Shown here: positions 5,324 through 9,884 of the stretch, one piece after another
Position numbering within the stretch: position 1 is the first letter of the stretch
Layout: every line of letters starts with the position of its first letter
From: Dehalococcoides sp. JdFR-56
Lineage (GTDB): Bacteria > Chloroflexota > Dehalococcoidia > Dehalococcoidales > RBG-16-60-22
Length of the DNA: 45,485 nucleotides
Direction of reading: 5' to 3'
Assembly (NCBI GenBank): GCA_002011495.1
Contig: MTNR01000052.1
Coordinates: 1-45,485 of the forward strand
The notes under the pieces: generated by a model
The model's database searches: none
Seen by the model: the letters and a program-made list of their open reading frames with translations, nothing else
Told to the model about the DNA's origin: nothing
Made by a program: the position numbers and the translations under genes

Positions 5324-5578
5324 CTAGCTTGAGTAAACGCTCACCTTTCTCCGGTTGTTTCTGGCTGGCTCGAACTTGACCACGCCATCAATGAGGGCGA
5401 AGAGGGTGTAGTCTTTGCCCACCCCCACATTGTTGCCGGGATAAATGCGGGTGCCTCGCTGGCGGACTAGGATGGTTCCGGCCCGCACCACCTCTCCTGC
5501 GTATTTCTTGACCCCGAGCCGCTTGGCCTGGCTATCCCGGCCGTAGCGGGTGGAGCCAGCTCCCTTCTTATGCGCCAT
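5324..5578 (-). CDS. rpmA: 50S ribosomal protein L27
   Basis: An 84-residue L27 with [16 protein letters not shown] at the N-terminus, [10 protein letters not shown], and the [15 protein letters not shown] core. The N-terminus reaches the peptidyl transferase centre. There is no N-terminal cleavage extension of the Firmicutes type, since the protein begins directly at MAHKKG. The ATG overlaps the end of rplU by 11 bases, so translation is coupled. Confidence 0.98.
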
Positions 5579-5951
5579 CTGTGGTCACCTCTTTTTTGCG
5601 CCGTCTGGTTTTCTTGGGCGGTTTTTCCTCGGCTATCCCCGGCCCGACTATCTGGTCAATGACCAGTTTGGTATGAAGCTGGCGGTGCCCTACCTTGCGG
5701 CGGTAACGCACCTTGGGCTTGTACTTGAAGACGATGACCTTCTCGCCTTTGTACTCCCCCTGTGAGGTGGCGATTACCTTTGCCCCCTCAACCGTGGGGT
5801 TACCCACCATTACCTTATCGCCATCGGCGATAAACAGTACCCTGTCCAACTCGACGGTACCGCCTTCAGCCACGCCCAGGCGTTCCACCTCGATGGTCTG
5901 GCCGGGAGCTACCTTATATTGTTTGCCTCCAGTTTCAACGATAGCGTAAAT
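5568..5951 (-). CDS. rplU: 50S ribosomal protein L21, ATT start codon
   Basis: L21 normally begins MYAIIETGGKQYRV. The matching frame reads [17 protein letters not shown] with the first codon ATT at 5951-5949. Upstream in that frame are only GAG, TTC, GGT, GGA, TTT, TTT, GGC, TTT and TAT before a TAA stop, so no ATG, GTG or TTG is available. GGAGG lies seven bases before ATT and a TTGACA/TATAAT promoter places the transcript start about 20 bases upstream. The next in-frame canonical codon, a GTG at 5888, would delete the conserved N-terminal strand. The product is 127 residues, with a basic C-terminal extension (KKTRRRKK) beyond the usual length of about 103. Confidence 0.95.
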
Positions 5952-8064: not shown

Positions 8065-8952
8065 ATGAAGGCGATAATGCTGGCAGCTGGCGAGGGAACC
8101 CGCTGTTATCCATTCACCTATCTCTCGCCCAAGATGTTCCAGCAGGTGGCTGGCATACCCTTGCTGGAATATATGCTTTCCTGGTTTGGTGGGACGCCGG
8201 AGATTGAGAAGCTGTATATCGTGGCTCGGAATGGTGCCGCCGTCAGCACACTCAAAAGTTATATTGAGAAGCGGGAGTCATATCTGGCTCAGATTGTGGA
8301 GCTATTCGGGCAGCTGGGGTACAAAGTGGAGTATACCAATCCGGGGCTTGAGATAGAGGTCGTTGAGGCTTATGGGTGGGGGACGGGAGGTGACCTGAGG
8401 CACGCTTTGAATGCGATAGTTTCCGCAGGTGGGCTGGGCGAGGACTTTCTGGTCTGCAATGCGGACTATGTCATCAACCGCAAGCTAGCTGACGGGGCTC
8501 TTTCCCTGCAGCTTGACCTCTCCGATATCATTGATTACCACCGACGCTGCAGGAAGGCGTTGGGCACGGTGATGACGGTGGCCTTCGTGGTGGTGGCGCG
8601 GGAGGAGGCGACCAGGTTTGGGGTAGGTCAGCTTGAGGAGGTTGATGGTTTCAAGGTGGTCCGTGGTTTTGTGGAGAAGCCGGATATCAAAGATATTGCC
8701 GATGACCCCCCAATAAACGCTGGGATCTGCGTTATTGATAGCCAATTTCTTCTCTCCCGTCTCGATGAATTTCTGCCGGAAAAGCCTGGGACAAGCTTGG
8801 AGAGGAATGTTATGGAGCGGCTGACCAGAGAAGCGCGGCCGATGCTGGCCGGCTATCTGCTTGACCTTTGCGCCTGGTTTGACGTCGGCACGCTGGAGCA
8901 GCTCATCAAGGTGAATATCTACATCGCTTCGCAGAAAGGAGGCCGAAGATAG
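8065..8952 (+). CDS. Sugar nucleotidyltransferase (sugar-1-phosphate NTP transferase)
   Basis: A 295-residue NTP-transferase with the N-terminal nucleotide-binding signature MLAAGEGTRCYPFTYLSPKM, where the usual Leu after GTR is Cys. Later motifs are GTGGDLRHALN, CNADYVIN (the metal-binding acidic segment), VRGFVEKPD and INAGICVID. The fold is that of glucose- or mannose-1-phosphate nucleotidyltransferases; which sugar and nucleotide are used cannot be decided. A long insertion around residues 60-90 (KSYIEKRESYLAQ) is not typical of RmlA. Its stop overlaps the ATA start of the downstream epimerase (ATAG), so the two are translationally coupled and likely supply a nucleotide sugar for surface glycans. 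Confidence 0.87.
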   Translation: MKAIMLAAGEGTRCYPFTYLSPKMFQQVAGIPLLEYMLSWFGGTPEIEKLYIVARNGAAVSTLKSYIEKRESYLAQIVELFGQLGYKVEYTNPGLEIEVVEAYGWGTGGDLRHALNAIVSAGGLGEDFLVCNADYVINRKLADGALSLQLDLSDIIDYHRRCRKALGTVMTVAFVVVAREEATRFGVGQLEEVDGFKVVRGFVEKPDIKDIADDPPINAGICVIDSQFLLSRLDEFLPEKPGTSLERNVMERLTREARPMLAGYLLDLCAWFDVGTLEQLIKVNIYIASQKGGRR

Positions 8953-9884
8953 ACAAAGTTCTTATCACCGGGGGTGCCGGATTTATCGGGTCTCATCTGG
9001 CGGAAGAACTGGCAAGTCAAGGTTATCAGGTTATCATTCTGGATGACCTTTCCACGGGAAGATTGGAGAATATCCGCGGTCTGGTGGGGAGGGATAACGT
9101 TGAGTTTATCCAGGGCAGTGTCACCGACCTGGCCCTGCTTCAGAGGCTCTTTCGGGGTGTGGAGTATGTCTTTCATCAGGCGGCCTTGGCCTCCGTCCCG
9201 GGCAGCGTTGAAGATCCTCTGGCCACGAGTGAGATAAACATCGGCGGCACATTGAAAGTATTGCTGGCGGCCAGAGATAATAAGGTGAAAAAAGTCATCT
9301 ATGCTTCCTCTTCCTCAGTGTATGGCGATACTTCCGCCATGCCACAGAAGGAGGACATGCCTTTAAATCCCATTTCTCCTTATGCCTTGACCAAGCTAAC
9401 GGGCGAACATTACTGCCATATCTTCCGCCAGATGTATGGTCTAGCCACGGTTTGTCTACGCTATTTTAACATCTATGGCCCGAGGCAAAGCTCTCAGTAT
9501 GCCGCGGTCATTCCCGCCTTTATCCAGAGGGCCTGCCAGGGCCTCCCGCCCGTCATATTCGGCGATGGCGCTCAGAGCCGGGATTTTGTCTTTGTCAAGG
9601 ATGTGGTGCAGGCCAATATTCTGGCCGCGGAAAGCGGGGCCGAGGGTGCCTACAACATCGGCAGCGGCCGGAGCATCACCATCAGGGAACTAGCGGAAAG
9701 TATTTTGCGGGTCATGGGTAAAAACTTGACGCTGGTCTATGAGGAGCCAAGGTCTGGTGAGCTCAAGCACAGCCTGGCTGATATCACCAAAGCTAGAGGG
9801 TTTGGTTACCAGCCAAGATGGACGCTGGAGGATGGCCTGGCGGAAACCATCGCCTATTTCTCCGAAGAAAGGAATTCACCCTAG
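8949..9884 (+). CDS. NAD-dependent sugar epimerase/dehydratase (UDP-glucose 4-epimerase type), ATA start codon
   Basis: A 311-residue extended SDR enzyme. It has the Rossmann motif TGGAGFIGSH, the adenine-pocket DDLSTG, the serine strand YASSSSVYG, the catalytic YALTK and the substrate loop RYFNIYGPRQ. The glycine motif lies right at the N-terminus, and the frame between the previous in-frame TGA and this motif contains no ATG, GTG, TTG or CTG. AAAGGAGG (8935-8942) lies six bases before ATA at 8949, which overlaps the upstream TAG. A later TTG at 9063 would remove the whole cofactor motif. It resembles WbpP/GalE epimerases acting on UDP-sugars, working with the preceding nucleotidyltransferase. 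Confidence 0.9.
   Translation: MDKVLITGGAGFIGSHLAEELASQGYQVIILDDLSTGRLENIRGLVGRDNVEFIQGSVTDLALLQRLFRGVEYVFHQAALASVPGSVEDPLATSEINIGGTLKVLLAARDNKVKKVIYASSSSVYGDTSAMPQKEDMPLNPISPYALTKLTGEHYCHIFRQMYGLATVCLRYFNIYGPRQSSQYAAVIPAFIQRACQGLPPVIFGDGAQSRDFVFVKDVVQANILAAESGAEGAYNIGSGRSITIRELAESILRVMGKNLTLVYEEPRSGELKHSLADITKARGFGYQPRWTLEDGLAETIAYFSEERNSP

Follow-up and report, generated by a model that had tools for sequence, protein, structure and literature searches.

A probable AUA start codon in a sugar-nucleotide epimerase gene of a Dehalococcoidia genome, and apparent AUH starts in its wider family

Results

Start site of the epimerase gene

In the window analysed in this study, a stretch of 45,485 nucleotides from Dehalococcoides sp. 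JdFR-56, a gene coding for an NAD-dependent epimerase/dehydratase of the extended SDR type very probably starts at AUA. The gene (8949 to 9884, plus strand) is intact and encodes 311 residues, with a TAG at 9882-9884 confirming the end that had been assigned to it initially. Its product matches PF01370 over the full length of the model (1-240 of 240, 1.7e-70) and finds its closest solved structure in PDB 6dnt (3.4e-79). The NAD-binding motif TGGAGFIG (TGxxGxxG, residues 7-14) and the catalytic motifs, consisting of SSSS at 120-123 and of Y145 and K149 in YxxxK, are invariant in the alignment. The scores for named epimerases stay below the NCBIfam equivalog cut-offs for TviC, the best model (215 vs 760), and galE (196 vs 262), and the protein is, by its predicted features, an ordinary NAD-dependent sugar-nucleotide epimerase/dehydratase to which no equivalog model assigns a substrate. 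The preceding gene on the same strand (8065 to 8952, 295 residues, ending with TAG) encodes a sugar-1-phosphate nucleotidyltransferase-like protein (Pfam NTP_transferase PF00483, 1.1e-16).

After an in-frame TGA at 8880-8882, the epimerase frame stays open from 8883 through 9884. Read codon by codon up to the cofactor site (CGT CGG CAC GCT GGA GCA GCT CAT CAA GGT GAA TAT CTA CAT CGC TTC GCA GAA AGG AGG CCG AAG ATA GAC AAA GTT CTT ATC ACC GGG GGT GCC GGA TTT ATC GGG), it contains no ATG, GTG, TTG or CTG between this TGA and the motif TGGAGFIGSH, as described in the initial annotation. The only AUH codons (AUA, AUU or AUC) located 5' of the motif are the ATA at 8949-8951 and an ATC at codon -1 of the motif itself. 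Direct reading equally bears out the two features that had been assigned to this ATA, namely its overlap with the stop codon of the upstream gene (TAG, 8950-8952, plus strand) as ATAG and the presence of a Shine-Dalgarno sequence (SD), AAAGGAGG, which is located at 8935-8942 on the plus strand within the 3' end of the upstream gene and which is separated from the ATA by a spacer of 6 nt (8943-8948). With no canonical start before the conserved N-terminus and a strong, properly spaced SD in front of an AUH codon, the gene thus combines both properties by which AUH-start genes were recognised. The first canonical start further downstream is the TTG at 9063, whose use would delete the entire NAD-binding motif. 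Gene callers commonly accept only ATG, GTG and TTG, and would for this reason shorten the epimerase to this TTG with the loss of its cofactor site.

The frequency with which a strong SD precedes an AUH codon was determined across 1.1 Mb of the genome with its 974 coding ORFs, considering codons at least nine codons before any canonical start. A strong SD at a distance of 4-10 nt is found for 6 of 71 AUH sites, compared with 19 of 1062 other sites, many of the latter 19 being neighbours of the same SDs. The predicted mRNA structure at the epimerase start is unremarkable (z -0.45). A search of the assembly did not find the 16S rRNA, in which the anti-SD sequence would be located. A genome-wide reading of AUA as methionine was considered and set aside, TilS being present in the genome.

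Comparison with orthologues

In the five relatives that were read (G001, G002, G004, G006 and G007), the epimerase is preceded by the nucleotidyltransferase. The pair is rare in the class, with the nucleotidyltransferase detected at E <= 1e-30 in this genome and two relatives only among 393 genomes. The nearest relative of the same family with the same gene pair is G001, whose epimerase and nucleotidyltransferase are respectively 67% and 73% identical to the proteins of the window. At its junction, GGAAAGATGAAGAAAGT, the ATG start and the TGA stop form an ATGA overlap exactly where the window has ATAG. An ATG is also found at the position of the ATA in G002, and residue 1 of the window epimerase aligns with Met1 of both proteins (L088 in G001, L087 in G002). 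The comparison of orthologous starts, which had been proposed initially as a check, thus places the initiator methionine exactly on the ATA and, together with the ideal SD and the absence of any other usable start, it supports the earlier reading that the gene can start only there. In G004, G006 and G007 the ATG is located one codon earlier, a few bases past a TAA. Among 102 genes with the epimerase motif, a count taken over all loci assembled for this comparison and in which the window copy, being present in three loci, is counted three times, the copy of the window is alone in lacking an in-frame ATG, GTG or TTG. By these comparisons the ATA change is private to this genome and, given that the gene pair of the nearest relative overlaps as AUGA, it probably arose from an AUG start.

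The same comparisons bear on the alternative that the ATA reflects an error of the assembly or its consensus and that the true genome has a canonical start at this place. The genome is a draft of 95 contigs with 92.75% completeness, base 8951 is known from one assembly, the genomes compared include no congener, and the orthologues carry ATG; moreover, with a single substitution at 8947, the frame would gain an ATG at 8946 and the upstream gene would still have a stop. However, this ATG would leave merely 3 nt between SD and start. The obvious single error, a G at 8951, would remove the stop codon of the upstream gene and extend the nucleotidyltransferase from 295 to 390 residues, although its orthologues end at 292-294 residues, at the same place as the window protein, and a conversion of ATAG into ATGA requires two adjacent changes. 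The error would in addition have to hit one particular base of the genome, and other AUH starts of the same genome are also present in relatives. A sequencing error at the start of the epimerase is thus unlikely. The initial annotation had stated that an ATG at the same place in orthologues combined with an error in the sequence would refute initiation at AUA. The first part applies to G001 and G002, but the second lacks support, because a one-base repair to ATG lengthens the upstream protein and because the genome contains other AUH starts, three of which are conserved in relatives.

A second alternative dispenses with a separate start and proposes that ribosomes shift into the -1 frame ahead of the TAG, which would yield an epimerase fused to the nucleotidyltransferase. 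It draws on the overlap of both genes and on the epimerase frame, which lies in the -1 register and extends without a stop into the upstream gene as far as 8883. However, a slippery heptamer of the form X XXY YYZ was not found in 8820-8952, and since the genes are separate in G002, G004, G006 and G007, with an ATG a few bases past the TAA, a fused protein would not be the ancestral state, which makes this mechanism highly improbable.

Finally, the change to ATA could be a start-loss mutation, with an epimerase that is barely or not translated and a gene at the beginning of its decay. The change is confined to this genome and, in E. coli, initiation at AUA, AUU, AUC and CUG proceeds at 0.1-0.3% of the AUG level, the value for AUA originating from one context, compared with 5-20% in two Clostridium species (PMC9680021). 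Conversely, all 311 codons are open without internal stop and the catalytic residues are intact. There is no sign of decay, since the dN of the epimerase to its relatives (0.23-0.28, with synonymous sites saturated) equals that among the relatives (0.21-0.28). The strong SD, which within the family is almost confined to the window copy, accompanies precisely the gene that has no AUG. We thus regard a decaying gene as quite improbable and retain AUA as the very probable start codon.

Other apparent AUH starts in the genome and its family

When 1.1 Mb of the genome was scanned, a strong SD followed by an AUH codon far ahead of any canonical start was found for the epimerase, rplU, hflX, a methyltransferase and an NTP-transferase gene; infC was found separately. 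Applied to 800 kb of G043, the same scan gave one weak match, and 400 kb of G225 gave no match; the stretches scanned in these two genomes contain neither infC nor hflX, and rplU of G043, which has an upstream in-frame TTG, was left out. When start-less genes were sought by coding score only, most candidates were antisense ORFs and the epimerase was not among them; rplU, infC, the methyltransferase, the NTP-transferase and prfB were recovered. A homology census against G043 likewise consisted largely of antisense ORFs and did not enter the comparison. In the prfB-like gene (G000:C13:15211-14129, minus strand) the frame opens without a start, which is presumably an instance of the well-known programmed +1 frameshift of RF2.

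The gene rplU, encoding ribosomal protein L21 (PF00829), is located in the window itself (5568 to 5951, minus strand), with an ATT at 5951-5949 as start and the SD GGAGGT at 5963-5958, six bases before it, and provides evidence for AUH initiation in the lineage that is independent of the epimerase. In the readable orthologues of the family, the start is ATT in 22 of 23 cases and ATC in the remaining one; the SD core is present in all of them and 20 have no canonical in-frame start. The third codon, in contrast, is not fixed and occurs as GCT, GCG, GCA or GCC. In the order and class, 15 of 26 relatives have ATT or ATC at the same position, the others showing ATG, GTG, TTG or a displaced start. 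Gene callers of the described kind would thus mis-start L21 in many genomes of the class. An AUU start in rplU was not found in the papers searched, few of which come from subscription journals.

The start of infC, which encodes IF3 and is present at C4:5608 (G000:C4:5566-6165, L148 from 1459 onward), is ATA in all 26 genomes of the family that were read. A canonical in-frame start is absent in 18 of the 26 and a strong SD is conserved, a pattern that is also known from S. aureus and that is consistent with autoregulation by IF3. In hflX, encoding the HflX GTPase (G000:C1:43220, L311, minus strand), 18 of the 20 genomes of the family lack any ATG, GTG or TTG ahead of the first conserved strand at the N-terminus. 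At one position most of these genes contain ATC, ATT or ATA, two contain GTT or AAC, and G001 has ATC-ATG; the exact start codon of hflX is assigned with less certainty, above all for genes with a weak or close SD. The methyltransferase (G000:C12:24335, L340, minus strand) has an ATA start with AGGAGG 7 nt before it, compared with GTG in five relatives, and is apparently a second private ATA start in this genome; L341 and L342 also lack a canonical start. Another AUH start is probable for the NTP-transferase gene (G000:C6:46484, in L135, plus strand), where AGGAGG is found six bases before ATC-ATA and canonical starts are absent over about 40 codons.

The start patterns of infC, rplU and hflX cannot be attributed to sequencing error, and the lineage appears to use AUH starts routinely. 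The statement of the initial annotation that initiation at AUA is very rare in bacteria is thus fair in general, but it applies less to this group.

Discussion

The features of the epimerase start suggest how initiation at AUA could proceed. On AUA, the initiator fMet-tRNA would pair with a mismatch at the third position and would be held there by a near-complete pairing between SD and anti-SD six bases upstream. Most likely, a ribosome that has just completed the nucleotidyltransferase would be retained by the internal AAAGGAGG and restart at the overlapping AUA of the AUAG sequence by termination-reinitiation. The decoding of AUA as start, the reinitiation and a reduced yield are all deduced from the sequence. 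The yield of epimerase would be expected to be several-fold below the level obtained with AUG, since the efficiencies of AUA measured in S. aureus, Clostridium and E. coli are all lower than that of AUG; in S. aureus, AUA reporters reach about 10% of the AUG yield, and ccpN up to 30% in rich medium (PMC13009471). Only 2 of 14 epimerase genes of the family, the window copy included, are preceded by an SD core, and the copy without AUG is therefore one of the few equipped with it. A compensation of the lost AUG by a strong SD would be the natural reading of this single case. In E. coli, IF3 opposes non-canonical starts and reinitiation, the effect on reinitiation being weaker in presence of an SD (PMC2268962).

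With respect to its wider significance, the AUU start of rplU that is conserved across much of the class is a more interesting lead than the epimerase, because L21, IF3 and HflX share a link to the ribosome and the starts of their genes could in principle all be under the control of IF3, which we put forward as a proposal rather than a result. In an extended form, Dehalococcoidia would contain a set of AUH-start genes comprising infC (AUA), rplU (AUU) and hflX (mostly AUC, AUU or AUA), which would be jointly set by IF3 so that L21 and HflX track its level, whereas the epimerase (AUA from AUG) and the methyltransferase (AUA where relatives have GUG) would be recent recruits to an SD-dependent initiation of low efficiency. 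We consider this scheme conceivable but rather doubtful. The conserved start of rplU would make the wider IF3-controlled circuit directly testable, and the AUH starts of this lineage, if they are used, would offer a comparative test of how far a strong SD offsets a poor start codon.

The proposed start of the epimerase has counterparts in known systems. In S. aureus, initiation at AUA has been demonstrated experimentally for infC, ccpN and citZ, with an extended SD reported for infC and ccpN that resembles the strong SD of the epimerase (PMC13009471). The metabolic enzyme gene citZ, whose AUA is limited to one strain lineage, parallels the private ATA of the epimerase. The latter is thus a new case of an established type and not its first, since the combination of AUA and a strong SD is already known from S. 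aureus, including a lineage-specific metabolic gene. In contrast to the epimerase, whose start is deduced from sequence, the starts in S. aureus were mapped by Ribo-Ret, and those of ccpN, citZ and the AUU gene cvfC1 were tested with reporters; an ATAG overlap with an upstream stop, as found for the epimerase, is not described for the AUA genes of that organism (PMC13009471). The infC genes of E. coli (AUU) and Streptomyces (AUC), as cited in PMC5472188, provide examples of non-AUG starts against which IF3 discriminates and which underlie its autoregulation. The infC of this Dehalococcoidia family, with AUA throughout, shares the non-AUG start of its E. coli counterpart, whereas the epimerase has no known link to IF3 feedback. 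In Streptomyces, sigR starts at GUC, is translationally coupled with rsrA and is repressed by IF3 (PMC5472188). It shares with the epimerase a non-canonical start in a coupled pair, but it differs in the codon, in encoding a regulator and in the location of the non-canonical start on the first gene. The closest parallel in gene arrangement concerns ATGA pairs with an overlap of -4 nt, for which PMC10666635 and PMC2268962 describe termination-reinitiation at a four-base overlap of stop and start within an operon with the SD located inside the upstream gene; as described there, these pairs start at AUG, whereas the pair in the window would do so at the AUA of ATAG.
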